From Luteimonas sp. MC1572 (GTDB lineage: Bacteria; Pseudomonadota; Gammaproteobacteria; Xanthomonadales; Xanthomonadaceae): 64,000 bases of DNA. Shown here in pieces: positions 9,727 through 52,626 of the stretch; position 1 is the stretch's first letter; every line of letters begins with the position of its first letter. A program made the position numbers and the translations under genes. Location of the stretch: the NCBI RefSeq assembly GCF_016615815.1, contig NZ_CP067112.1, forward strand, positions 434,001 to 498,000, given 5' to 3'. Below the pieces are notes generated by a model that saw only the letters and a list, made by a program, of their open reading frames with translations, ran no database searches and was not told the DNA's origin.

Positions 9727-11013
9727 TCAGCCGCGTTCGCGCGCGATCGCGCGCCAACCAATGTCGTGGCGGTGGAACTCGCCATGCCAGGAGATGCCGG
9801 CCAGTTCGGCATAGGCGCGCTGCTGTGCGTCGGCGACGCTGTCGCCCAGCGCGCAGACACACAGCACGCGGCCACCGGCGGTGACCGCCTGGCCACCCTC
9901 GAGGCGGGTGCCGGCGTGGAATACACGGGTGTCGTCGAGGTCGGGCACGTCCCAGGTGTTGATGACATCGCCGGTGCGCGGCGCCTCCGGGTAGCCTTCG
10001 GCCGCCATCACCACGCCCAGCGCCGGCCGCGGATCCCAGCGCGCCTCCATGCCGGCCAGCCGGCCGTCGATGGCGGCCTGGACCAGTGCCGCGAGGTCCG
10101 ACTGCAGCCGCATCATCACCGGCTGGGTTTCCGGGTCGCCGAAGCGCACGTTGAATTCGATGACCTTGGGCATGCCGTCGCCGTCGATCATCAGGCCCGC
10201 GTACAGGAAGCCGGTGAACGGAGTGCCGTCGGCGGCCATGCCGCGCACGGTTGGCTCGATCACCTCGCGCATGACCCGCGCGTGCACTTCGGGCGTGACC
10301 ACCGGCGCCGGCGAATACGCGCCCATGCCGCCGGTGTTGGGGCCGGTGTCGCCGTCGCCGACGCGTTTGTGGTCCTGGCTGGTGGCCATCGGCAGCGCGG
10401 TCGTGCCGTCGACGATGGCGATGAAGCTGGCCTCTTCGCCGTCGAGGAATTCTTCCACCACCACGCGTGCGCCGGCGTCGCCGAACGCATTGCCGTCCAG
10501 CATGTCGGCGACCGCGGCTTCCGCCTCGGCCAGCGTCATCGCGACGATCACGCCCTTGCCGGCGGCCAGGCCGTCGGCCTTGATCACGATCGGCGCGCCG
10601 AGGGCGCGTACGTGCGCGAGTGCTGCATCCACGTCGGTGAACACCGCGTAGTGCGCGGTGGGAATGCGGTGGCGTTCCAGGAAGGCCTTGGCGAAGGCTT
10701 TGCTGCCCTCGAGCTGCGCGGCGGCGGCGGTGGGGCCGAAGATGCGCAGCCCGGCGGCGCGGAAACGATCGACGATGCCGGCAACCAGCGGCACCTCGGG
10801 GCCGACCAGCGTGAACGCTACGGCCTCGTCGCGCGCCAGCTGCAGCAGCGCATCCAGGTCGGTGGCGGCGATGGCGACGTTGCGGCATTTGCCCTCGGTC
10901 GCGGTGCCGGCGTTGCCGGGGGCGACGAGGACGTCGTGCACGTCAGGCGACTGCGCCAGCTTCCAGGCCAGCGCGTGCTCGCGGCCGCCGGAGCCAATGA
11001 CCAGGACTTTCAT
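9727..11013 (-). CDS. purD: Phosphoribosylamine-glycine ligase
   Basis: 428 residues, full family length. Second step of de novo purine synthesis: phosphoribosylamine + glycine + ATP to GAR. The N-terminus carries the diagnostic KVLVIGSGGREHALAW, and the ATP-grasp core includes KADGLAAGKGV and, further on, the metal-binding EFNVRFGDPE. It follows purH by 79 bases; that gap contains a GC-rich hairpin at 11049-11067. Confidence 0.97.
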   Translation of the reverse strand: MKVLVIGSGGREHALAWKLAQSPDVHDVLVAPGNAGTATEGKCRNVAIAATDLDALLQLARDEAVAFTLVGPEVPLVAGIVDRFRAAGLRIFGPTAAAAQLEGSKAFAKAFLERHRIPTAHYAVFTDVDAALAHVRALGAPIVIKADGLAAGKGVIVAMTLAEAEAAVADMLDGNAFGDAGARVVVEEFLDGEEASFIAIVDGTTALPMATSQDHKRVGDGDTGPNTGGMGAYSPAPVVTPEVHARVMREVIEPTVRGMAADGTPFTGFLYAGLMIDGDGMPKVIEFNVRFGDPETQPVMMRLQSDLAALVQAAIDGRLAGMEARWDPRPALGVVMAAEGYPEAPRTGDVINTWDVPDLDDTRVFHAGTRLEGGQAVTAGGRVLCVCALGDSVADAQQRAYAELAGISWHGEFHRHDIGWRAIARERG

Positions 11014-11048
11014 GCGTCAACCTCGCCGTTCAACTGGGTGGGAGCATA

Positions 11049-11067
11049 GCCCCCTGAGTCAGGGGGC
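11049..11067 (-). terminator. Intergenic hairpin between purH and purD
   Basis: Perfect 7-base stem GCCCCCT/AGGGGGC with a 5-base loop. No U-tract follows on the minus strand, so it is more likely an mRNA-processing or pausing hairpin than a full terminator. Confidence 0.35.
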
Positions 11068-11092
11068 GATTCGCGCCATACGCGCGAAGTCA

Positions 11093-12664
<1,572 letters not shown>

Positions 12665-12735
12665 GGGATGCGTGGGGGCAGCGGGAAAGCGGCAATTATA
12701 CGACCGGGCCCGAAGCACCGGCCCGCACCGCGGCT

Positions 12736-13008
12736 TCAGACGATGCCGTAGTCGCGCAGCTTGCGGCGCAGCGTGGCGCGGTGGATGCCGAGGATCGCCG
12801 CAGCGCGGCTCTGGTTGCCTTCGCAGTGGTTCAGGACCTCGACGAAGAGCGGGATCTCGAGCTCGCGCAGGGCGATCTCGTAGAGATGCTCTTCATCGCA
12901 GCCGTCGAGGTCGCGGATATAGCGGCGCACGGCGTTCGCGACGTGCTCGCGCAGCGGCGGACGCGGCGTGCCGCGCGCAGGCGGCTCGGATTGGTCGGCA
13001 GCGTTCAA
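12736..13008 (-). CDS. fis: Fis family nucleoid/transcription factor
   Basis: 90 residues. The C-terminal half is the Fis helix-turn-helix ([20 protein letters not shown], then LRRKL), preceded by two dimerisation helices. Fis bends DNA and activates rRNA and other growth-phase promoters. The start is a TTG at 13008, with only a weak GGGAC upstream; no better in-frame start gives the usual length of the N-terminal beta-hairpin region, so the start is tentative. Neighbours DUF3426 and prmA upstream match the conserved prmA-fis linkage. Confidence 0.9.
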
Positions 13009-13094
13009 AGGGGTCCCGGAAGCACCGCGCCCTGGCGGCGCGGATCACGGACGAGTCTAGCGCGCGCCCGGCGGGCAAGCCAATTGGCGCCGAC

Positions 13095-14165
13095 TCAGCG
13101 GAAGTCGAACATGAAGGCGACCGCGCCCCGGCCCGGTTCGCGCACGTCCATGCGGATCACCGCGCCCGCGCCGCTGTCGATGAGCGCGCCGTCCGGCGCC
13201 TGCCCCAGGTATTCGTCGGGCGCGAATGCGCGCGTGCCCAGCGGGCGGCCGTCGACATCGGACAGGGTCAGCACCACCTCCGGCCACGGCTGCGGCCAGG
13301 CGGCGTTGTTGCGGAAGCTGGCGGTGATGCGCAGCGTGTCGGCGCGTTGCGGATGCGGGCGTACGTCGCGTTCGAGCAGCGCGAACGCGGCAGGTTCGCG
13401 CCACGGCGGCAGCGTGCAGCGCAGCAGCGCGCAGGTGCGGGCCACGACCGGACGCCAGGCGGGGTCGGCCGCCAGCCGTGCGCGGTCGGCGAGCAGCCAC
13501 TGCACGCCGAGCAGTGCGGTCAGGCCGACGATGGCGGCCGGCATGACCCAGCGCCGCCCGGGCGGCACATCGGCGGCGATGCGACGCGCGCGGGCGAAGC
13601 TCGGTGCCGGCTTGCCGGTGCGGCGTGCCGGTGTCGGCGCGATGACGGAGGCGTCCGCAGCGGCGGGCTGGGCGGGCACGTCGCCTGCGGGTGTGGGTAC
13701 GTCGTCGGCGATATCCGGGAGAACGCCAGGGCCCGCGGTGTCCAGGCTTGCTTCCTCCGCGTTCGCCGCGTGTTCTCCGTCAGCAAGCTTCACCGCATTC
13801 GCGAGGTCGGGCGACGGGGCAGGTGCCGCCGCGACTGCTGTCGACGCCGCCGCATCCTGCGGCGCAACGTCGCCTTCTGCGACATCGGTGCCGCTCCGCA
13901 GCAGCGAAGCCACCGAGATCGCCGGGCGCGCGAGCAGCTCCGCGTCCGCATCGCGCGCGGGTCCGAAGGCATCTTCGATGGCCGCGGCCACGCCGCTGCG
14001 CGCGGCTTCGATCGCGTCGGCGTCGGGGCCGCGCACGTCATGCGCCTGCTCCGGCGGCCGTGTGGCATCGAGCTGTGCCGCGCAGCGCGGGCAGCGCGGC
14101 GGCGGCAGGTCGGTGGCCGGATCGGTGGCGATCAGGCCGCGGCAGTACGGGCAGTTGATGAACAT
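13095..14165 (-). CDS. Zinc-ribbon DUF3426 membrane protein
   Basis: 356 residues. Begins with a MJ0042-type zinc ribbon (CPYC near residue 5 and CPRC near residue 26), followed by a long Ala/Pro/Asp-rich linker of low complexity, one transmembrane helix (about residues 225-245), then the DUF3426 domain (about 250-355), a beta-sandwich probably outside the membrane. Sits between prmA and fis as in other Xanthomonads. Role unknown. Confidence 0.85.
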   Translation of the reverse strand: MFINCPYCRGLIATDPATDLPPPRCPRCAAQLDATRPPEQAHDVRGPDADAIEAARSGVAAAIEDAFGPARDADAELLARPAISVASLLRSGTDVAEGDVAPQDAAASTAVAAAPAPSPDLANAVKLADGEHAANAEEASLDTAGPGVLPDIADDVPTPAGDVPAQPAAADASVIAPTPARRTGKPAPSFARARRIAADVPPGRRWVMPAAIVGLTALLGVQWLLADRARLAADPAWRPVVARTCALLRCTLPPWREPAAFALLERDVRPHPQRADTLRITASFRNNAAWPQPWPEVVLTLSDVDGRPLGTRAFAPDEYLGQAPDGALIDSGAGAVIRMDVREPGRGAVAFMFDFR

Positions 14166-39360: not shown

Positions 39361-40032
39361 ATGCAACCGACCGTCATCGCCCCATCGATCCTTTCGGCGG
39401 ACTTCGCCCGCCTCGGCGAGGAGGTCGACAACGTGCTCGCCGCCGGCGCGGACTGGGTGCACTTCGACGTGATGGACAACCATTACGTGCCCAACCTCAC
39501 CATCGGCCCGCTGGTGTGTTCGGCGCTGCGCAAGCATGGCGTCACCGCGCCGATCGACGTGCACCTGATGGTGTCGCCGGTGGACCGCATCGTCGGCGAC
39601 TTCGCCGAGGCAGGCGCCACGCTGATCAGCTTCCACCCGGAGGCGAGCTCGCACGTGCACCGCACCGTCCAGCTGATCCGCGCCGCCGGCTGCAAGCCGG
39701 GCCTGGTGCTGAACCCGGCCACGCCGATCGAAGTGCTCGACTACGTGCTGGACGAGCTCGACCTGGTGCTGCTGATGTCGGTCAATCCGGGGTTTGGCGG
39801 CCAGGCCTTCATTCCGTCCGCGCTCGACAAGCTGCGCGCGGTGCGCAAGCGCATCGATGCCAGCGGCCGTGACATCCGCCTCGAGATCGACGGTGGCGTG
39901 AAGCCGGACAACATCGGCGCCATCGCCGCCGCCGGTGCCGACACCTTCGTCGCCGGCTCGGCGATCTTCAGCCAGCCCGACTACGCCGAGGTCATCGCGC
40001 GCATGCGCGCGCACGCCGCCGCGGGGACCTGA
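39361..40032 (+). CDS. rpe: Ribulose-phosphate 3-epimerase
   Basis: 223 residues, full length. Interconverts ribulose 5-phosphate and xylulose 5-phosphate. Conserved [22 protein letters not shown] with metal-binding His/Asp, and VNPGFGGQ are intact. Its TGA overlaps the ATG of the lipid kinase gene (TGATG), starting a coupled rpe-yegS-trpE run. Confidence 0.98.
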
Positions 40033-40979
40033 TGGTCGCGCCGTGCTGGAGGCTGGTGCTCAACGGCAAGTCGGCCGGCGACGACGCGCTGCGCGATGCG
40101 GTGACCGCGATCCGCGACCGCGGCGTTGCGCTCGACGTGCGGGTGACGTGGGAGGCAGGTGATGCGGAGCGCCATGTGTCCGAAGCCATCAGCGACGGCG
40201 TGGCGACGATCATCGCGGCCGGTGGCGACGGCACGCTGAGCGAAGTCGCGGCGGCGCTTGCGAACCGCGCCGACGCCGCCGACGCCCTGCCGTCGGTCGC
40301 CCTGGTGCCGATGGGCACCGCCAACGACTTCGCGAGCGCGGCCGGCATTCCGGACACGCCGTTCGACGCGATGGCGCTGGTGCTGGAGCAGCCACCTGCG
40401 GTCGTCGACCTGTTGCGCATCAGCGCGGACGGCGAGGTGCACTGGGCGGCGAACATGGCCAGCGGCGGATTCGGCACCGACGTCACCGTGGAGACCAGCG
40501 AGGGCATGAAGAAGCTGCTCGGTGGCCTGGCGTACGTGGTCACGGGCATGGCCAGGCTGGGCCGGATCGAGCCGGTCACCGCGCGCTTCAACGGCCCGGA
40601 TTTCGAATGGCACGGTGACTTCATCGCGCTCGGCATCGGCAATGGTCCGCAGGCCGGTGGCGGGCAGGCGCTGTGCCCCGACGCGCTGGTCGACGATGGC
40701 CTGCTCGAACTTACGATCGTGCCCACGCTCGAAGGCGAAGTGGGCGCGACGATGGCCACGCTGCTGGCCGACGGCAAGCATGCCGCGCTCGATCGCGTCG
40801 CGGTGCGCACGCGCCTGCCTTGGGTGGACGTGGCATCTGACGCGCCGCTCACGCTCAACCTGGATGGCGAGCCCGTCACGGCCACGCACTTCCGCATCGA
40901 ATGCGTCGCCGGGCGCCTGCGCATGCACCTGCCGGCCGGCTGCGCCCTGCTCTCCGCGAACGGTACGGGCACGCCATGA
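40032..40979 (+). CDS. YegS-like lipid kinase
   Basis: 315 residues, diacylglycerol kinase catalytic fold. The ATP-binding [10 protein letters not shown] (about residues 64-73) and GTANDFA motif are intact; the C-terminal beta-sandwich is present. YegS-type enzymes phosphorylate phosphatidylglycerol or diacylglycerol. It overlaps rpe by one base and trpE by four (ATGA), so all three are probably one transcript. Confidence 0.9.
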
Positions 40980-42448
40980 CCCCCGAAGAATTCCAGCGCC
41001 ACGCCGACGCCGGCCACACCCGCATCCCGGTGCTGCGCGAGGTGCTGTCGGACCTGGACACGCCGCTGTCGGTGTACCTGAAGCTGGCCGATGGCCCCAA
41101 CACCTATCTGTTCGAGTCGGTGGAAGGCGGCGAGCGCTTTGGCCGCTACTCGATCATCGGCCTGCCGGCGACGCGCGTGTACGCGTTCCATGGCCACGTG
41201 CTCAGCGTGCGCGAGCACGGCGAGGTGGTGGAGACGCGTGAGGTCGCCGATCCCTTCGCCGAGGTCGAACGCCTGCGCGCCGCGCACTCTGTGCCGCGCA
41301 TCGCCGGGCTACCGGGGTTCACCGGTGGCCTGGTGGGCTGGTTCGGCTTCGAGTGCATCGGCTATGTCGAGCAGCGCCTCGATGGTGCCGACAAACCGGA
41401 CGAGCTCGGCACGCCCGACATCCTGCTGATGGAGTCGGACGACCTCGCGGTGTTCGACAACCTCAAGGGCCGCCTGTACCTGGTGGTGCACGCCGACCCG
41501 CGCGAGCCGCAGGCGCTGGCACGCGCCAACCGTCGGCTCGATGCGCTGGTGCATCGCCTGCGCAGCGGCGGCGCGGCGTACCCCGAGATGCTGCAGCCGG
41601 CGGCGCTCGACGAAGCGGACTTCGTCTCCGGGTTCACCCGCGACGGCTTCATCGATGCGGTGAAGCGCTGCCAGGAGTACATCGCCGCCGGCGACGTGTT
41701 CCAGGTGGTGCTGTCGCAGCGGCTGTCGGTGCCTTTCCACGCGCGCCCGGTGGATGTCTACCGCGCGCTGCGTGCGTTGAACCCGTCGCCGTACATGTAC
41801 TTCCTAGACGTTGGTGGCACCCAGGTGGTGGGCAGCTCGCCGGAGATCCTCGTGCGCCAGCAGGGCGACCTGGTCACCGTGCGCCCGATCGCCGGCACCC
41901 GCCCGCGCGGAGCCACGGCCGAGGAAGACGCCGCGCTCGAGGCCGAGCTCCTGGCGGACCCCAAGGAGCGCGCCGAGCACCTGATGCTGATCGACCTCGG
42001 CCGCAACGATGTCGGCCAGGTCGCGCGCCCGGGCACGGTGGAGATGGGCGAGCGTTTCGTGATCGAGCGCTACAGCCATGTCATGCACATCGTCAGCGAG
42101 GTCACCGGGCGCCTGCGCGAAGGGCTGTCGTATACCGACGTGCTGCGCGCCACGTTCCCGGCCGGCACGGTCAGCGGCGCGCCCAAGATCCGCGCGCTGG
42201 AGATCATCCGCGAGCTCGAGCCGGTCAAGCGCAACGTGTACGCGGGCAGCATCGGCTACATCGGCTGGCACGGTGATGCCGACACCGCGATCGCCATCCG
42301 CACCGCGGTGATCCAGGGGGGCCGCCTGCACGTGCAGGCCGGCGCCGGCATCGTCTACGACTCCGACCCGGTGAAGGAGTGGGAGGAGACGATGAACAAG
42401 GGGCGCGCGCTGTTCCGCGCGGTGGCGCAGGCGGCGGGCGGGCTGTAG
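40976..42448 (+). CDS. trpE: Anthranilate synthase component I
   Basis: 490 residues. Chorismate to anthranilate with the TrpG amidotransferase. Conserved chorismate-binding motifs [16 protein letters not shown], and [11 protein letters not shown] are present, as is the N-terminal feedback region. It overlaps the lipid kinase gene by ATGA. No leader peptide or tryptophan attenuator is seen, because the start lies inside the preceding gene. Confidence 0.97.
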
Positions 42449-42505
42449 CCGGCGCGAACGCGCGGTTTGGGTGAAAATGATCGATCCGCCGGCACGGATG
42501 CAGCC

Positions 42506-43087
42506 ATGCTGCTGATGATCGACAACTACGACAGCTTCACCTTCAACCTCGTGCAGTACCTGCAGGTGCTCGGCGCCGAGGTGCGCGTGGAGCGCAACGA
42601 TGCGCTCACCGTGGATGACATCGCACGCATGGCGCCGGAGCACATCGTGCTGTCGCCGGGGCCGTGCACGCCGAACGAAGCCGGCATCTGCCTGGCGGTG
42701 ATCGAGCAGCTCGGCCCGCGCATCCCGATCCTCGGCGTGTGCCTGGGCCACCAGGCCATCGGCCAGGCGTATGGCGGGCGCGTGGTGCGCGCCAAGCGGA
42801 TCATGCACGGCAAGACTTCGCCGATCCGCCACACCGGAGCCGGCGTTTTCAGCGGCCTGCCGGATGGCTACGAGGCCACCCGCTATCATTCACTGGTGGT
42901 CGAGCAGGGCAGTCTCCCGGACTGCCTGGAAGTCACCGCCTGGACCGACGACGCCGACGGCGGCCGCGAGGAAATCATGGGCCTGCGCCACCGCGAGCAT
43001 CCGGTGCAGGGCGTGCAGTTCCATCCGGAGTCCATCCTCAGCCAGCACGGCCATGCGCTGTTGCGCAACTTCCTCGAACAGGTTTGA
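42506..43087 (+). CDS. trpG: Anthranilate synthase component II (glutamine amidotransferase)
   Basis: 193 residues, class I amidotransferase with catalytic Cys in [12 protein letters not shown] and the His-Glu pair in VQFHPES. Could also serve para-aminobenzoate synthase, as trpG does in several bacteria. 57 bases after trpE, 8 bases before trpD. Confidence 0.97.
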
Positions 43088-43095
43088 AGCACGCG

Positions 43096-44136
<1,041 letters not shown>

Positions 44137-44174
44137 GGTCGGCGCGCGCGGGGCCTGCCTGGCCGGACGCGTGC

Positions 44175-44209
44175 TATTTTCCAGCCTCCGTGGCATCCGC
44201 GTGATGCCA
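44175..44209 (+). promoter_or_regulatory. Candidate promoter and palindromic operator of the cyanophycin cluster
   Basis: TATTTT (44175-44180), a possible -10 box, is followed by a perfect inverted repeat, TGGCATC-CGCGT-GATGCCA (44191-44209), just past the expected transcription start and 53 bases before cphB. It could be a repressor site or a 5' mRNA hairpin. No convincing -35. Confidence 0.4.
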
Positions 44210-44262
44210 TCCATTGAATTTCGCCGTTGCGCTGGGAGCGCGCGGCCGGGAGTGTTTGCTGC

Positions 44263-45105
44263 ATGTGTCCGAGCAAGGTCGCCGACGGCGAAGAGCGTGG
44301 CTGGATCGTTCCCATCGGCGGGGCCGAGGACAAGGAAACCGGGCGCAGGATCCTCAAGCGCTTCGTGGAGCTGTGCGGCGGCCGCGATGCCGACATCGCC
44401 ATCATCCCCACCGCAAGCCGCCTGGCCGAAACCGGACCGCGCTACGAGGATCTGTTCAACAGGCTCGAGGCCGGGCGCGCGCGTTCGGTGCCGTTCGCGT
44501 CCCGCGAGGACGGTGGCCGCGATGCCTACCTGCGCCAGCTGGAGGAGGCCACCGGGGTGTTCATCACCGGCGGCAACCAGCTCCGCCTGTCGACCATCCT
44601 CGGCGGCACCGCGGCCGCACGCATGATCCGCGAACGCAACGCCAGCGGCGTGCATGTCGGCGGCACCAGCGCCGGCGCCAGCATCCTCAGCGAGCACATG
44701 ATCGCGTTCGGCAAGGAAGGTTCGTCGCCGCGCGCCAGCAGCGTGCGGCTCGCGCCCGGGCTGGGGCTGACCAACCGCTTCATCATCGACCAGCATTTCC
44801 GCGAACGCGACCGGCTTGGCCGGCTGGTGGCGGCGCAGGCCTACAACCCGTTCGCGATCGGCATCGGCCTGGACGAGGACACCGCCGCCTTCATCGCCCC
44901 CGACAATACGCTCGAGGTCGAGGGCAGCGGCTCGATCACCGTCGTCGATGCCAGCGGCCTGCAGTTCTCGTCGATGGCCGAAGCGGGCCAGGACGATCCG
45001 GTGTGCCTGCTCGGGCTCACCGTCCACATCCTGGTGGCGGGCGCCACCTACAACCTGCATACGCGCCGCGCGTCGCCCGGTACATTGGCCGACACACACG
45101 ATTGA
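44263..45105 (+). CDS. cphB: Cyanophycinase
   Basis: 280 residues, peptidase family S51. Hydrolyses cyanophycin to beta-Asp-Arg dipeptides. The catalytic serine sits in GGTSAGAS (about residue 138), with GWIVPIGGAEDK at the N-terminus and FITGGNQ upstream. Cytosolic form, with no signal peptide, so it serves mobilisation of an internal store. The ATG at 44263 is chosen over a TTG at 44227 because a GGGAG lies upstream; the spacing is rather long. 28 bases before cphA. Confidence 0.93.
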   Translation: MCPSKVADGEERGWIVPIGGAEDKETGRRILKRFVELCGGRDADIAIIPTASRLAETGPRYEDLFNRLEAGRARSVPFASREDGGRDAYLRQLEEATGVFITGGNQLRLSTILGGTAAARMIRERNASGVHVGGTSAGASILSEHMIAFGKEGSSPRASSVRLAPGLGLTNRFIIDQHFRERDRLGRLVAAQAYNPFAIGIGLDEDTAAFIAPDNTLEVEGSGSITVVDASGLQFSSMAEAGQDDPVCLLGLTVHILVAGATYNLHTRRASPGTLADTHD

Positions 45106-45132
45106 TCCAAACGCCACCATGAAGGGAATGAC

Positions 45133-47925
45133 ATGCGCGTCCTGAACCGTTCCGTCTACGTCGGTCCATCGCTTTACGCGCACTTCCCGGTGATCCGCCT
45201 CGAGCTCGACCTGGGCCTGCTGGAGCAGTGGCCCACCGCGCGCCTGGGCGCCGGTTTCATCGATGGACTGGTTGCCGCGCTCCCGGGCCTGGCCGAGCAC
45301 GGCTGCTCGTACCGCGAGCCCGGAGGCTTCCTCCGCCGGCTGCGCGAAGGCCAGGGCACCTGGCTCGGCCACGTGCTGGAGCACGTCGCGATCGAACTGC
45401 AGAACGTCGCCGGCGAAGACGTCACGTTCGGCAAGACCCGCGGCATCGACGACGACCGTCCCGGCGTGTACGCGGTGATCTACGAGTACGCGCAGCGCGA
45501 GGAAGGCATCGCCGCCGGCGAGCTCGCGCTGAAGCTGCTGGAATCGCTGTTGCCCGCGGAGCTGCGCACGCCCGGCAGCGTGCCCGATGGCTGGGAATGG
45601 GACGAGGCGCTGACCGCGTTCATCCGCTACGCGCAGCGACGCCAGCTGGGCCCGTCGACGGCATCGCTGGTGCGCGCCGCCGAGGAGCGCGACATCCCGT
45701 GGATGCGCCTCAACGAGCAGTCGCTGGTGCAGTTCGGCCACGGCAAGTACCAGCAGCGCATCCAGGCCACGGTCACCGGGCGCACCTCGCACATCGCCGT
45801 TGAGCTCGCCAGCGACAAGGAAGAAACCAACAAGATCCTTGGCGCACTCGGCCTGCCGGTGCCGCGGCAGGTCATGGCCAGCAGCCAGACCGATGCCATC
45901 AAGGCGGCGAACCGGCTGGGCGGCTCCGTGGTGCTGAAGCCGTGGAACGGCAACCACGGTCGCGGCATCACCATCGACGTAAGTGGCGACGACGCCATCC
46001 GCGAGGCGTTCAACGCCGCGCGCGAGCATGCGCGCTCGGTGATCGTGGAGACCTTCCAGCCCGGCGACGACCACCGCCTGCTGGTGGTCGATGGCGAGCT
46101 CGTCGCCGCCACCCGGCGCACGCCCGGGCACGTGGTGGGTGACGGCCGCAGCACCATCGCCGAGCTGGTGGAGGTGGTGAACCAGGACCCGCGCCGCGGC
46201 GTGGGCCACGAGAAGGTGCTGACGCGGCTGGAACTCGACGATGCCGCGGTGCTGATGATGGAGCGCGTGGGCATGGCCGCCGATTCGGTGCCGGCCGAAG
46301 GCGAGGTGGTGTACCTGCGCGCCACCGCCAACCTGTCCACCGGCGGCACCGCCACCGACGTCACCGACACCATCCACCCCGACAACCGCGACATGGCCGA
46401 GCGCGCGGTGCGCGCGATCGGGCTGGACGTCGGCGGCGTGGATTTCATCACCCCCAACATCGCCGAGAGCTATCGCACCATCGGCGGGGCGATCTGCGAG
46501 GTCAACGCCGCGCCCGGTTTCCGCATGCACGTGGCACCCAGCGAGGGCACGCCGCGCGATCCCGCCGGGCGCGTGATCGACATGCTGTTCCCCGCCGGCG
46601 CATCGACGCGCGTGCCGATCGCGGCCATCACCGGCACCAACGGCAAGACCACCACCGCGCGCATGCTCGCGCACATCACCAAGATGGCCGGCTACACGCC
46701 CGGGCTCACCACCACCGACGGCGTCTACATCGACGGCCAGCGCACGGTGGAAGGCGACATGACCGGGCCGACTTCGGCACGCATGGTGCTGCGCGACCCG
46801 CAGATCGACATGGCGGTGCTTGAAACCGCGCGCGGCGGCCTGCTGCGCGCCGGCATGGGCGTGCGCCACGTGGACGTGGGCGCGGTGCTCAACGTCGCCG
46901 CCGACCATCTCGGCCTGAAGGGCATCGACACGCTGGAGCAGCTCGCCGAGGTCAAGCGCGTGGTGGTGGAGGTGGCGCGCGAGTGCGCGGTGCTCAACGC
47001 CGACGACCCGCAGGTGCTGCGCATGTCCGCGTACACCGATGCGCGCAGCATCTGCTACGTGACCATGAACCCTTCGCACGCGCTGGTGCGCGAACACATC
47101 CGCGCCGGCGGCGGCGCCTGCGCGCTGGAGGCGGGCGTCAACGGCCAGATGATCACGCTGTACGACAAGGGCGCGCACCTGCCGTTGATGTGGACGCACC
47201 TGATCCCGGCGACGCTCGAGGGACGCGCGCTGCACAACGTGCAGAACGCGATGTTCGCCGCCGCCATGGCCCATGCGCTGGGCATCAGGCTCGATGCCAT
47301 CCGCCAGGGCCTGCGCACCTTCGATTCCACGTTCTTCCAGGCCCCCGGCCGCATGAACGTGTTCGAGGGGCACCCGTTCAAGGTGGTGATGGACTACGCG
47401 CACAACGCGCACGCGGTGGCGATGATGGCCGAGCTGGCGCAGCGGCTGGATGTCGCCGGGCGCCGGATCGTGGTCGTCGCCGGGCCGGGCGACCGCCGCG
47501 ACGAGGACCTGGTGGCGATCGCCGGCAGCGTCGCCGGGAAGTTCGACCACTACATCGTGCGCCGCGACGACAGCCTGCGCGGCCGCGACGGCGACGAGGT
47601 GCCGCGCATCATCTCCGACGCGCTGCGCGCCGCCGGCGTGGGCGACGATGCGATCAGCGTGATCGCCGACGAGCAGGCCGCGGTGGACGCCGCGATGCGC
47701 ATGGGCCGCGCCGGCGACCTGGTGCTGGTGCTGGCCGACGCGCTCACCCGCACCTGGAAGCAGATCACCAAGTTCCGCGCCGATGGCGAGGCGCCGCCCG
47801 CACCGGTGCGCGCGGAGCCGCCGACGCTCTCGGAGTCCGAGCACGACGCGGCCACGGTGGCGGCGATGGACGGCGTGGTGCGCGACGAGCGCGGCCTGGT
47901 GTTCGAGCGCGAAGAGAACGACTGA
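45133..47925 (+). CDS. cphA: Cyanophycin synthetase
   Basis: 930 residues, full CphA1 length. Polymerises aspartate and arginine into multi-L-arginyl-poly-L-aspartate. Three parts are seen: an N-terminal domain (about 1-165), an ATP-grasp domain (about 215-480, with LKPWNGNHGRGITID), which adds Asp to the backbone, and a Mur-ligase domain from about 495 (ITGTNGKTTT, then ETARGG and the DYAHN motif), which adds Arg to the side chain. GAAGGGAATG precedes the ATG. 20 bases before the shorter homologue. Confidence 0.96.
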   Translation: MRVLNRSVYVGPSLYAHFPVIRLELDLGLLEQWPTARLGAGFIDGLVAALPGLAEHGCSYREPGGFLRRLREGQGTWLGHVLEHVAIELQNVAGEDVTFGKTRGIDDDRPGVYAVIYEYAQREEGIAAGELALKLLESLLPAELRTPGSVPDGWEWDEALTAFIRYAQRRQLGPSTASLVRAAEERDIPWMRLNEQSLVQFGHGKYQQRIQATVTGRTSHIAVELASDKEETNKILGALGLPVPRQVMASSQTDAIKAANRLGGSVVLKPWNGNHGRGITIDVSGDDAIREAFNAAREHARSVIVETFQPGDDHRLLVVDGELVAATRRTPGHVVGDGRSTIAELVEVVNQDPRRGVGHEKVLTRLELDDAAVLMMERVGMAADSVPAEGEVVYLRATANLSTGGTATDVTDTIHPDNRDMAERAVRAIGLDVGGVDFITPNIAESYRTIGGAICEVNAAPGFRMHVAPSEGTPRDPAGRVIDMLFPAGASTRVPIAAITGTNGKTTTARMLAHITKMAGYTPGLTTTDGVYIDGQRTVEGDMTGPTSARMVLRDPQIDMAVLETARGGLLRAGMGVRHVDVGAVLNVAADHLGLKGIDTLEQLAEVKRVVVEVARECAVLNADDPQVLRMSAYTDARSICYVTMNPSHALVREHIRAGGGACALEAGVNGQMITLYDKGAHLPLMWTHLIPATLEGRALHNVQNAMFAAAMAHALGIRLDAIRQGLRTFDSTFFQAPGRMNVFEGHPFKVVMDYAHNAHAVAMMAELAQRLDVAGRRIVVVAGPGDRRDEDLVAIAGSVAGKFDHYIVRRDDSLRGRDGDEVPRIISDALRAAGVGDDAISVIADEQAAVDAAMRMGRAGDLVLVLADALTRTWKQITKFRADGEAPPAPVRAEPPTLSESEHDAATVAAMDGVVRDERGLVFEREEND

Positions 47926-47945
47926 GATGACCGGCGGGTACTGAC

Positions 47946-49730
47946 GTGGCGGACGCATTCGAGGACTCGCGCCGGCTCACCGGCGGCAACGTCTATTTCG
48001 CAGGTCCCGGCGCCGCGCTGGAAGCGGCGGCCGGTGCCGCGGCGGACGCCGCGACGCTCGCGCGCTGGGCCGGCAACATCGCCGCGGCGCGCGCGGCGCT
48101 CGGCTGGCCTGTCGGCGCGGTGCTGGTGCGCCCGCATGCCAGCGGCGCCTCGCTGGCGTTCGAGGCTCCGTTCGACCAGCTGTATGCCGCCACCGAGGTC
48201 AACGAGTGGGCGTGGACGGCCGCCGTGGCGTCCACCAGCGGCGACCCCGGTGCCGCGTACCTGGCGCCGGGGCATGCGGCCTGTCGCGATGCCGACAGCG
48301 CGCTGCACACGCTGCGCGCGGTCGCCGCGGCCGAAGCCAACCCGGCGCTGGTCGCGCTGCGCGCCGCCGCCCATGCGCGCGGCCTGCCGTTCCTGTTCGA
48401 CGACGACGAGGCCACCGTCGGTGCCGGCCGTGGCGCAGCCACCTGGCCGGTGCATGCGCTGCCGGCGGCCGACGCGATCGACTGGGCGGCGCTGCACGAC
48501 ATTCCGTCGGCGCTGGTCACCGGCTCCAACGGCAAGACCACGACCGTGCGCCTGGTCGCGGCGATGACGCGTGCGCACGGCTGGCCCACCGCGCACAGCT
48601 GCACCGATGGCGTGTTCTTCGACGGCGTCGAACTCGAATCCGGCGACTACTCCGGCCCGACCGGCGCGCGCACCGCGCTGCGCCAGCCCCACGCCGAGGC
48701 CGCGGTGCTCGAAACCGCCCGTGGCGGCCTGCTGCGCCGCGGCCTGGCGGTGGAGCGCGTACGGGCGGCCGTGGTCACCAATGTCAGCGAGGACCACTTC
48801 GGCGAATACGGCGTGCACGGGCTGGCCGACCTAGCGCGGGTCAAGCTCACGGTGGCACGCGCGGTGGCCGATGACGGCCTGCTGGTGCTCAACGCCGATG
48901 ACGCACTGCTGCGCGAACTTGGCGCTGACAGCGACCGCTCGCTGGGCTGGTTCGCGCTGGATGCGGAAGCGCCATGGCTGGTGGCGCATCGCGCCCGCGG
49001 CGGGGCGACCTGCGGCGTGCGCGCCGGTCGCCTGCAGCTGCACTGGCAGGGCAAGGACCACGACCTCGGCGTGGTGGCGGACATGCCGCTCGCGCTGGGC
49101 GGCCGCGCCACCTACAACGTCGCCAACATCGCCGCCGCGAGCCTCGCGGCGTCCGCCATGGGCGTGCCGCCGGCGACGATTGCCGGCGCGCTCGCACGCT
49201 TCGGCGCGGGCACTGGCGACAATCCCGGGCGCCTGCAGCACTGGCGCTTCGACACGCTCGACGTGTTCGTGGACTACGCGCACAACCCCGACGGCCTGCA
49301 CGGTTTCCTGCGCGCGATCGGCGCCGGGGAACGTGGCGGTCGCCTGGCGTTGATCCTCGGCCACGCCGGCAACCGCGAAGACGCCGACCTGCGCGCGGTG
49401 GCCGCGACCGCGGCGGCCTACCGCCCAGAGCTGGTGGTGCTGAAGGACATCGGCGGCTACGAGCGCGGCCGCGCCGCGGGCGAGGTGGCCGGTATCATGC
49501 GTGCCACGCTGCTTGCTTCGGGCGTCGGCGCGGACGCGATCGAGACCCGTCTCGACGAGGTCGAGGCCGCGCGCCGACCGCTCGAATGGGCGCGTGCCGG
49601 CGACCTGCTCGCACTGCCGGTCCATGAACTTTCCGCGCGTGCCAGCGTGGTCCGCCTGCTCGACGCGCTGCACGCGCAGGGCTGGCGGCCCGGCCAGCCG
49701 CTGCCCCCGATACAGGACGACATGCCATGA
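47946..49730 (+). CDS. Cyanophycin synthetase-like Mur ligase (no ATP-grasp domain)
   Basis: 594 residues. The Mur-ligase module starts near residue 190 ([26 protein letters not shown]) and is collinear with the C-terminal half of cphA, but the ATP-grasp domain is missing. The first ~190 residues resemble the N-terminal domain of CphA only loosely. It may bind and add the side-chain amino acid, replace Arg by another residue, or assist CphA. GTG start at 47946. Its stop overlaps the ATG of trpC (ATGA, 49727-49730). Confidence 0.82.
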
Positions 49731-50545
49731 CCCAACCCCGCCACGACGTGCTGCGCCGCATCCTCGCGCGCAAGGTGGAGGAAGTCGCCGAGCGCAGCGC
49801 GCGCGTGCCGCGCGAGGCGCTTGCCGCGCGCCTGGCCGATGCGCCGCCGGTGCGCGGCTTCGCCGCGGCCATCGAGCGCGTCGCCGCGTCCGGTCGCCCG
49901 GCGGTGATCGCCGAGGTCAAGAAGGCCAGCCCGTCGAAGGGCGTGATCCGGGCGGACTTCGATCCCGCCGCGATCGCGCGCAGCTACGAAGCCGGCGGTG
50001 CCGCCTGCCTGTCGGTGCTCACCGACATCGACTTCTTCCAGGGCGCCGATGCCTACCTGCAGCTGGCGCGCGACGCCTGCGGCCTGCCGGTGCTGCGCAA
50101 GGACTTCATCGTCGATGCCTACCAGGTCGACGAGGCGCGCGTGCTCGGTGCCGACTGCGTGCTGCTGATCGTCGCCGCGCTCGACGATGCGCGCCTCGCC
50201 GCGCTCAGCGCGCAGGCGCTCGCGCTGGGCATGGACGTGCTGGCCGAGGTGCACGACGCGGACGAATTCGCACGCGCGCTGCGGCTGCCGGCGGTCGAGG
50301 GCCGCGCGCCGCTGCTGGGCGTCAACAACCGCGACCTGCGCAGCTTCGAGGTGTCGCTGGAGACCAGCGAAGCGCTGGCTGCCAGCGTGCCCGCCGGGCG
50401 GCGGCTGGTGTCCGAGAGCGGAATCATGACCACGGCGGATGTCGCGCGGCTGCGCGCGGCGGGCATCGAGGCGTTCCTGGTCGGCGAAGCCTTCATGCGT
50501 GCCGACGACCCGGGCGAGGCGCTGCGCGCGCTGTTCGCGGCATGA
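49727..50545 (+). CDS. trpC: Indole-3-glycerol phosphate synthase
   Basis: 272 residues, monofunctional. Ring closure of carboxyphenylaminodeoxyribulose phosphate to indole glycerol phosphate. Conserved [23 protein letters not shown] and [10 protein letters not shown] are intact. Starts within the stop of the cyanophycin-like ligase gene and its own stop overlaps the next ATG, so it is embedded in a coupled chain with the cyanophycin genes upstream. Confidence 0.97.
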
Positions 50546-51291
50546 GCAGTGGTCCCCACCCCGGCGCGGCTCGTGGCGTGCCGCGCGCGGACGCGCCGCT
50601 GGTGGTGTTCGATTTCGACCACACGCTGTACGACGGGGACTCCGGAAGCCACCTGTTCGCCTGGCTGATCCGCCGCAGTGCGTGGCGCACCGCGCTGGCA
50701 TTGCTGCTGGCGCCGGTGTTCGCGCCGATGGTGGCGTTCCTGCCGACGCGGCGCATCGGCATCTCGGCGTTCGTCTGGGCCGGTACGGTCGGCTTCCACC
50801 GGCGCCGCGACCTCGACGCGCTGATCGACACCTATGTCGCCGGCCACGTCGACACCATCCGCGCCAGGCTGCTGCCGACGGCGCTGGCGGTGTTCCAGGC
50901 GCATCGCGAGCGCGGTGACCGCGTCGTGGTGGCGACCGGCGCACCCCCGGAACTGGCGCGCGCGATCCTCGCGTTCGTCGCCCAGGAGGACGTGCCGGTC
51001 GTGGGCACGCTCGCGGGTCCGCGCTTGGGCGCGGTGGTCGCGGTGCGCCACTGCCACAACGAGGAGAAGATGCGCATGCTGCGCGAGCGCGGCTGGGGCG
51101 GCATCGATATCGCGTACTCCGACTCCAGCGCGGACCTGCCGCTGCTGCGCGCGGCGCGCGCGCCGGTGGTGGTCAATCCCAAGCCCGGCGCGGTGGCGCT
51201 GTTCCGCCGCGAACTTCCGGCCGGCACGCCGATCCTCAACTGGGGCTGCCCGGGGCGTGCCGGCGATCCGGTGGCGACCGCGCAGGGCTGA
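50542..51291 (+). CDS. HAD-IB family phosphatase
   Basis: 249 residues. HAD motif [12 protein letters not shown], motif [10 protein letters not shown], motif III Lys in HNEEKMRML, and motif [18 protein letters not shown] members include phosphoserine phosphatase and phosphatidylglycerophosphatase-like enzymes; the substrate is not evident. Overlaps trpC by ATGA, so coexpressed. One hydrophobic segment (about residues 50-75) may touch the membrane. Confidence 0.87.
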
Positions 51292-51323
51292 AGCAGGCGT
51301 GCGCGCATGGCGCGCCGGCCGAG

Positions 51324-52079
51324 TCAGGCGCCGAACAGCGCCCGGTAGATCTGGAAGCCGCTGATCGACAGCACCAGGCCGCCGACGGCGAACAGCACCA
51401 GGCGCTCGCGCACGTGGCGCACCATGAGCGCCGAGATCGGCGCGGCGACCACCCCGCCAATCAGCAGGCCGAGGGTGATCTTCCAGTGTTCCAGCCCGAT
51501 GGAGAGCAGGAACGTCACCGAGATCGCCAGGGTCACCATGAACTCCGATGCGCTGACGGTACCGATGCTGGTCCGCGCCTCGCCGCCGCGGGCGAGCAGC
51601 GTGGAAGTGGCGATCGGCCCCCAGCCACCGCCGCCGATGGCATCCAGCAGGCCGGCGAAGAAGCCGAGCACGCCGACGCGCTTCACCCGGCTGCGCGGCA
51701 CCATGCGCCCGCCCGCGCGCAGCAGGATCAGCAGCGCCAGCACCAGCAGGTAGCCGTAGATCCACGGTTTGATGGCATCGCCGTCGATGCGGCTGAGCGC
51801 ATATGCGCCGATCACCCCGCCCACCACGCCCGGCACCGCCAGCCGCAGCATCAGCTTGCGGTCGACGTTGCCCAGTGCGCCGTGCGCCGCGCCTGAGACG
51901 CCCGTGGTGAAGACCTCGGCGGTGTGCACGCTGGCGCTCACCGCCGCCGGCGGCATGCCCATCGCCAGCAGGATCGACGACGACACCAGCCCGTAGGCCA
52001 TGCCCAGTGCGCCATCGATCAGCTGTGCGCACAGGCCGATGGCCACGAACATCGCGAAATCGCCGCCTAGCAGGTCCAT
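51324..52079 (-). CDS. TauE/SafE family transporter
   Basis: 251 residues, about eight membrane helices. Family members export sulfite, sulfoacetate or other organosulfonates, or import sulfate-like anions; nothing here fixes the substrate. Signature GLLDAIGGGGWGPI (about residue 138) is typical. Last gene of a clp-GNAT-tauE run on the minus strand; converges on the HAD gene. Confidence 0.88.
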   Translation of the reverse strand: MDLLGGDFAMFVAIGLCAQLIDGALGMAYGLVSSSILLAMGMPPAAVSASVHTAEVFTTGVSGAAHGALGNVDRKLMLRLAVPGVVGGVIGAYALSRIDGDAIKPWIYGYLLVLALLILLRAGGRMVPRSRVKRVGVLGFFAGLLDAIGGGGWGPIATSTLLARGGEARTSIGTVSASEFMVTLAISVTFLLSIGLEHWKITLGLLIGGVVAAPISALMVRHVRERLVLFAVGGLVLSISGFQIYRALFGA

Positions 52080-52155
52080 GCACCTCCCGTCGCGCCTGGC
52101 GCGTGGTTCAGGGGCTCAGGATAACGGGCGGGGCAGGGGCGGGTGTTGCCGCGGA

Positions 52156-52626
52156 TCAAGCGTCGCCGAGCCGCTTGACGAAGCGCACCGTGCCGTCGCC
52201 AAAGCCGCAGGCCTGGTAGAAGGCGTGCGCGTCGCTGCGCTGCGAGCCGCTGGTCAGCTCGATGCGCGCGGCCCCGGCGGCGCGGGCGCGGCGCTCCGCC
52301 TCGCGCAGCAGCTGGCGGCCAAGGCCGCGCCCCTGCGCACCGGCGGTCACCACGAGTGCGGTGATCCGGCAGGTGATGGTGTCCAGCGGCAGGTAATACA
52401 TGAAGTCGAGCGCGACCAGGCCGCACACCACGCCGCCACAGCGCGCGACCACCAGCGCCTGGCGGTCGTCGCCGACGATCGCGGCGATGCGCCGCCCGGC
52501 ATCCGCGCGGTCGCAGGGATAGCCCATCTCGCAGAGCAGGGCGGCGACGTCGTCGGCGTCGATCGACGACGCGCTGCGCAGGTCGGCCTCGGGCAGGGTG
52601 CCGCGGGATTCGAAATGCGCCGGCAC
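52156..52626 (-). CDS. GNAT family N-acetyltransferase
   Basis: 156 residues. Acetyl-CoA site QGRGLGRQLL (about residues 96-105) and the C-terminal HAFYQACGF are typical of GNAT. Substrate unknown. GTG start at 52626, 7 bases after the clp stop, without a clear Shine-Dalgarno; it may be translated by coupling with clp. Confidence 0.82.
   Translation of the reverse strand: MPAHFESRGTLPEADLRSASSIDADDVAALLCEMGYPCDRADAGRRIAAIVGDDRQALVVARCGGVVCGLVALDFMYYLPLDTITCRITALVVTAGAQGRGLGRQLLREAERRARAAGAARIELTSGSQRSDAHAFYQACGFGDGTVRFVKRLGDA

Follow-up and report, generated by a model that had tools for sequence, protein, structure and literature searches.

Core-biosynthesis operons are commonly regarded as conserved blocks, and the locus described here raises the question of how a set of nitrogen-storage genes came to lie inside one of them and what keeps it there. 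In Luteimonas sp. MC1572 genes for cyanophycin, a polymer of aspartate and arginine, are found between trpD and trpC of the tryptophan (trp) cluster. The stretch analysed, referred to below as the window, comprises 64,000 nucleotides (positions 434001-498000 of a 3.02 Mb genome in one contig). A cyanophycin (cph) cassette of cphB, cphA and cphA-prime, ahead of which many relatives have iadA, occupies the interval between trpD and trpC in a trpE-G-D-C cluster that is ordinary in other respects. The reading favoured here, which rests on sequence comparison and to which we assign a probability of about 0.6, is that this interval would be a permissive site with at least two gains of the cassette and repeated losses of it, the cassette riding on trp read-through.

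Comparison of gene order across the family bore out the insertion into a trpD-trpC pair that an original prediction, made from the window's sequence, had described, but the arrangement is not peculiar to MC1572, being present in 29 other genomes. In a sample of 149 family genomes CphA scored above its curated cut-off in 30, and in 10 of these the cph genes lay between trpD and trpC, a state referred to here as linked. A larger sample of 395 family genomes, in which the 31 genomes of the first sample with CphA at E <= 1e-150 are included, gave a CphA match at that level in 91; TrpC positions in the 60 new ones added 20 linked genomes, and it was for linked genomes that trp stretches in this larger sample were read. 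At least 30 of the 91 CphA genomes are linked, a lower bound because many CphA genomes have cph and trpC on different contigs; they belong to six genera (by genus code, nine in g1, one in g12, ten in g14, one in g32, one in g40 and eight in g44) and the cassette has the trp orientation in 30 of 30. The other 61 include one undecided at contig ends (G729), one with no TrpC match (G710), four with only a divergent CphA pair (G044, G097, G571, G666) and at least two with a partial CphA (G122, G606). Outside the family linkage was seen in none of 19 CphA genomes (13 genera, from a class-wide sample of 370), 14 of which had the genes on different contigs, so that contig ends may be responsible, and five of which had them far apart on one contig. 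A one-off accident or an assembly artefact of MC1572 is refuted by the single contig and the 29 other genomes, and can be given virtually no credence. In three g1 genomes (G642, G684, G722) 86-97 kb separate CphA from trpC and the two are on opposite strands, as an inversion through a linked locus might leave. In three g15 loci (L126, L129, L136) an unlinked cph cluster adjoins genes resembling thrA, thrB and thrC, which we take to be another amino-acid operon; the simple gene caller used there took antisense frames in places, and its output served only to identify shared neighbours.

The usual state in the family is for trpD to adjoin trpC. Among 80 named loci around the nearest TrpC relatives (the best 80 of at least 548 confirmed matches) trpD lies upstream of trpC on the same strand in 77, and in 76 of the 77 the hit-to-hit distance is 700 bases or less, the exception being L057 (Lysobacter sp. 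Root916), in which cph genes fill the interval. In another locus, L039 (Luteimonas sp. BDR2-5), the end of cphA-prime stands directly before trpC at a contig end. Within the 149-genome sample the trp stretch was read in 139 genomes in addition to the window's (two lacked trpD in the stretch; G020, G029, G030, G040, G060, G066, G091, G096 and G135 were not read), and of the 137 trpD/trpC pairs 128 have no cph genes between them, with gaps of -20 to 1309 bases, and nine do. The original prediction presupposed that this adjacency is ancestral, and neither set of loci overturned it. Of the 128 pairs without cph genes, 66 have between trpD and trpC a gene of about 119 residues, a representative of which matches the Pfam family ABM (antibiotic biosynthesis monooxygenase); its median spacing is 1 base to trpD and -2.5 bases to trpC, and it often touches or overlaps both. 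The suggestion that the cph genes had been inserted into a tolerant site gains support from this, since an unrelated gene fills the same gap. The trpE-trpG distance also varies across the family, from an overlap (L021) to about 5.8 kb (L002) and about 7.4 kb (L023), so variably that the trp cluster as a whole seems loosely built.

It may be asked whether the linkage is instead selected, co-expression of nitrogen storage and tryptophan synthesis being useful to the cell. That several lineages have the cassette in this one interval, always in trp orientation, would fit such an explanation, but the orientations count few independent events, 61 of the 91 CphA genomes have no visible trp link (some being undecided at contig ends), the ABM gene uses the same gap, and we know of no direct metabolic tie between an aspartate/arginine polymer and tryptophan. 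Selected linkage is regarded as very unlikely; the evidence speaks more for a permissive site, maintained by chance and flank homology, than for selection for shared regulation.

Organisation and products of the locus

The original prediction gave the order trpE-trpG-trpD-cphB-cphA-Mur-ligase homologue-trpC on one strand, with gaps of 126, 27, 20 and -4 bases from trpD on. These coordinates were reproduced, with NCBIfam and Pfam assignments in agreement, and a further overlap of -4 bases joins trpC to the next gene. CphB, CphA, TrpD, TrpG, TrpE and TrpC all exceed curated NCBIfam cut-offs, and the view that a cyanophycin locus interrupts the trp cluster is upheld. Positions below are those of the window.

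40901..42448, + strand: trpE, anthranilate synthase component I (TIGR00564 541 bits, cut-off 517.7; start as in the listed open reading frame, the true start may be later)
42467..43087, + strand: trpG, anthranilate synthase component II (TIGR00566 268.4 bits, cut-off 121.05; TTG start as listed, family match from residue 14)
43096..44136, + strand: trpD, anthranilate phosphoribosyltransferase (TIGR01245 398.9 bits, cut-off 199.05)
44137..44262, + strand: trpD-cphB intergenic gap, 126 bases
44263..45105, + strand: cphB, cyanophycinase, S51 peptidase (TIGR02069 246.5 bits, cut-off 126.6; GTSAGA serine motif; solved cyanophycinases 7uqv, 3en0, 7uqw)
45133..47925, + strand: cphA, cyanophycin synthetase 1, with N, ATP-grasp G and Mur-like M domains (TIGR02068 1106.2 bits, cut-off 850; PF18921, RimK, Mur_ligase_M, Mur_ligase_C; solved CphA 7lgn, 7lgm, 7lg5)
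47946..49730, + strand: cphA-prime, Mur-ligase-type homologue of the CphA M domain without ATP-grasp (Mur_ligase_M and Mur_ligase_C; P-loop GSNGKTT)
49727..50545, + strand: trpC, indole-3-glycerol phosphate synthase (NF001373 375.3 bits, cut-off 317)
50542..51291, + strand: HAD-family hydrolase, past trpC (PF12710 84.4 bits)

The frames are not chance ones, since they are long, are assigned to families and recur in the same order in the 29 other genomes. Indole-3-glycerol phosphate synthase has a single match in the whole genome. An Rfam search of 40000-52500 matched nothing, and a repeat scan of 43900-50700 turned up no matches but short ones, several of which pair cphA with its homologue cphA-prime, no search having been aimed at transposases in the flanks.

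The cyanophycin genes of the window look functional. Window CphA aligns over residues 1-893 of 930 with solved cyanophycin synthetase, and the motifs NHGRG and DHLG are kept in alignments to solved CphA 7lgn and 7lgm. The catalytic residues of SuCphA1 are given in PMC9262961 as H267 in the G domain and D585 and H586 in the M domain; in our own reading NHGRG and DHLG would be the motifs that hold them. Among the sampled CphA proteins GTNGKT and DHLG occur in 31 of 31 and NHG[RK]G in 28. The primer-making motif of the N domain, published as Cx19HxxEH, is represented in the window protein by C58 and HxxEH at a spacing of 21, the spacing found in 28 of the 31 sampled proteins, the window's included; the motif is absent in G044, G097 and the partial G122. 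All 25 sampled CphB proteins have the GTSAGA motif.

The third gene, described at the outset as a shorter Mur-ligase homologue, proved to be just that, with Mur_ligase_M and Mur_ligase_C as its only domains. It is referred to here as cphA-prime, a name already in earlier use for an isolated Mur-ligase homologue beside cphA. Its product covers residues 487-853 of CphA 7lg5, the Mur half only, and no ATP-grasp domain was detected in it; its 308.7 bits against TIGR02068 lie under the cut-off of 850, so that by these models it is no second cyanophycin synthetase. Its match is to the M domain of solved CphA, relatives are labelled either 'Mur ligase' or 'cyanophycin synthetase' by the source databases, and the P-loop is kept in 29 of 29 sampled CphA-prime proteins. 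A plasmid search with this protein returned 22 records, all below 60% identity, i.e. no close plasmid copy in that collection.

Some Mur-ligase homologues are interrupted in frame by a DUF559 stretch, which on alignment falls after about residue 96-101 of the window protein. The place is the same in six genomes of genera g1, g15, g35 and g22: G130 (L113, cphA-prime at 10969-13245), G144, G056, G126, G035 and G021; Pfam was run on G130 only, and the source databases name the stretch a very-short-patch-repair endonuclease. PF04480 was found in 24 of the 120 Mur-ligase homologues listed, the carriers having 753-800 residues, and is absent from the window protein. A divergent pair of CphA-like genes lies away from trp in four g44 genomes (G044 and G097, i.e. 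L140 and L139, with G571 and G666); the second gene of the pair matches only about the first 716 profile positions, and in G044 and G097 identity to window CphA is 36-43%.

By the conventional roles of these products CphA would polymerise aspartate and arginine and CphB would release beta-Asp-Arg dipeptides. IadA was found neither in the MC1572 genome nor in its cph cluster, and PF04952, the one model of the cyanophycin dipeptide hydrolase type that was tried, had no match in the genome. The genome has a single PF01112 (IaaA-type) peptidase gene, at C1:2281966-2282883 and unlinked to cph, which could finish cyanophycin breakdown. In linked g14, g40 and g44 genomes iadA precedes cphB (e.g. L057, L127, L133, L112, L117), and in L057 it scores above the cut-off of TIGR01975.

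Probable transcription through the cassette

A single transcript is likely to run from trpD, or from above it, through trpC and the HAD gene, with translation of trpC coupled to that of cphA-prime; it is the tight spacing of the genes that makes co-transcription likely. For trpEGDC the basis is likewise a common strand and short gaps. The 4-base overlap of cphA-prime with trpC recurs in 13 of the 26 genomes in which the two genes meet directly, and the HAD gene follows trpC at -4 in 26 of 30 linked loci; a few start choices in the table of gaps at linked loci are artefactual (gaps of -741, -783, -730 and -169). On such an arrangement trpC would depend on transcripts that pass the cph genes, and a block to transcription through cph should starve the cells of tryptophan.

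Alternatively, the genes may be neighbours only, separately regulated, with a cph promoter in the 126-base gap and a trpC promoter inside cphA-prime. The largest gap from trpD on does indeed precede cphB, and in eight other linked g1 genomes the corresponding gap is 39-260 bases. The 126-base gap folds no better than shuffled sequences, and neither a consensus promoter nor a terminator was found in it, although only one promoter type was scanned and such scans are weak in GC-rich DNA; this is no promoter or terminator evidence either way. With no consensus promoter found in that scan, and with the gaps after cphB in the window at 27, 20 and -4 bases, separate regulation is considered unlikely.

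One insertion or several

The position of the ABM gene provides a marker for where the cassette entered. Fourteen of the 30 linked genomes have the order trpD-ABM-cph-trpC (order B), namely all ten of g14 and G130, G555, G731 and G737 of g1; four have trpD-cph-ABM-trpC (order A), namely G032 (g32) and G582, G593 and G622 (g44); and in 12, the window genome among them, ABM is absent. L057 and G585 have identical CphA-prime and ABM proteins and were counted once. A tree built from 50 CphA-prime proteins unites the four order-A genomes in a single clade, which also holds further rows of g44 and g40 as well as two unlinked rows, and divides the 14 order-B genomes between two other clades. Each of these three clades has a Shimodaira-Hasegawa-like approximate likelihood ratio test (SH-aLRT) support of 100, and the same three lineages came out of a tree of 29 CphA-prime rows. 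Since the two orders sit in different, strongly supported lineages, the simplest reading is that there were at least two insertions, one on either side of ABM.

It could also be that the cassette was inserted once, long ago, in the common ancestor of the linked genera, that many losses followed, and that the two ABM orders arose by later movement or regain of ABM. In the RpoB tree, which covers 51 genomes, all ten linked genomes of the first sample fall in one subclade of 33 rows (SH-aLRT 96), and linked CphA-prime rows are clustered, the label changing 4 times on the tree as against 15.4 times in shuffles; the ABM genes that follow the cassette, moreover, do not form one group. All this is as a single insertion would have it. 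The CphA-prime tree nevertheless conflicts with that of RpoB: G011 and G032 are RpoB sisters (99) yet have CphA-prime proteins of different clades, and three unlinked g15 rows that stand outside the RpoB subclade have CphA-prime proteins nested with one linked lineage. A single insertion is thought rather unlikely.

Loss and gain of the cassette may have proceeded partly by recombination, the flanking trp genes supplying the homology. Within g44, where eight linked genomes can be set against four without a linked cassette, TrpD identity is 87.0% among linked genomes and 80.2% between linked and unlinked, whereas there is no split in TrpE (87.2/87.2) or TrpC (79.2/79.5) and little of one in TrpG (84.0/81.9) or the HAD protein (75.1/73.3). 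TrpD of G032 is 86.1% identical to that of linked g44, 79.9% to that of unlinked g44 and 82.2% to that of G011. Among 495 relabellings, a procedure that ignores relatedness, the TrpD split ranks first, those of TrpG, TrpC and HAD ranking 31, 91 and 41. That TrpD divides by linkage and TrpE and TrpC do not hints at exchange through trpD, the cassette being gained or lost along with that gene. A stronger version would make the trpD-trpC interval a recurrent exchange site, at which complete cassettes are gained, replaced and lost through recombination in the flanking genes, and would have nitrogen storage and tryptophan supply obligately coupled in expression, as trpC would be read only through the cassette; this stronger version is held to be improbable.

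A number of observations weigh against a permissive site entered at least twice and against exchange through trpD. There is no break in composition at the window locus, the G+C fraction of the cph genes being 0.695-0.748 and that of the trp genes 0.665-0.739. The ABM tree is poorly resolved, ABM being short, and places the four order-A ABM genes in two positions, so that ABM could have moved or been regained. The CphA tree recovers the order-A lineage (99/100) and g14 (100/99), but leaves G000, G130 and G011 unresolved rather than in one clade. The CphB tree puts G073 together with G000 and G011, apart from G072 and G032, a partial disagreement which suggests that the cassette may be a mosaic whose parts were exchanged separately. 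The g44 TrpD comparison was chosen after the tree had been seen; in approximately unbiased (AU) tests a single g44 TrpD clade was borderline (p 0.049), and there was no rejection of a single g44 TrpC clade (p 0.70). Of the four unlinked g44 species, two (G044, G097) are those with a divergent CphA pair elsewhere. A permissive site, entered more than once, remains the reading we prefer.

Significance and comparison with known systems

One interval of a core operon has apparently taken in an accessory nitrogen-storage cassette more than once. As related species have the cassette there, elsewhere in the genome or not at all, the causes of operon sharing, whether hitch-hiking, homology-assisted transfer or co-regulation, can be tested against one another. 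Luteimonas, Lysobacter and related genera may also be added, on the genes they carry, to the likely producers of cyanophycin.

Literature on cyanophycin with trp genes, Lysobacter, Xanthomonas or Luteimonas was searched and the arrangement was not found in titles or abstract openings, subscription papers being largely outside the search, so that absence is not proven. It has been reported that cphA1 clusters with a cyanophycinase gene in 81% of cases and forms a trio with iadA in 16% (Sharon & Schmeing 2023, PMC10206079). The locus resembles those clusters in that cphB adjoins cphA and that iadA joins them here in g14, g40 and g44, and differs from them in being embedded between trpD and trpC; the main text of that paper has no mention of tryptophan, Lysobacter or Xanthomon. 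From the same family comes the cphA-cphB locus of Lysobacter capsici AZ78, in which the cyanophycinase gene is directly followed by that of the synthetase and for which no orthologues were reported in the Stenotrophomonas and Xanthomonas genomes compared (PMC4742617); the gene order is shared with the present locus, and the account given there does not mention a trp cluster. Genes other than trp genes, with no known role in tryptophan synthesis, have been described inside trp operons, e.g. between trpB and trpA (PMC2395257, citing Xie et al. 2003). Unlike the inserts described there, the present one is a storage-polymer cassette of three or four genes, lies in the trpD-trpC interval and is found in several genera.

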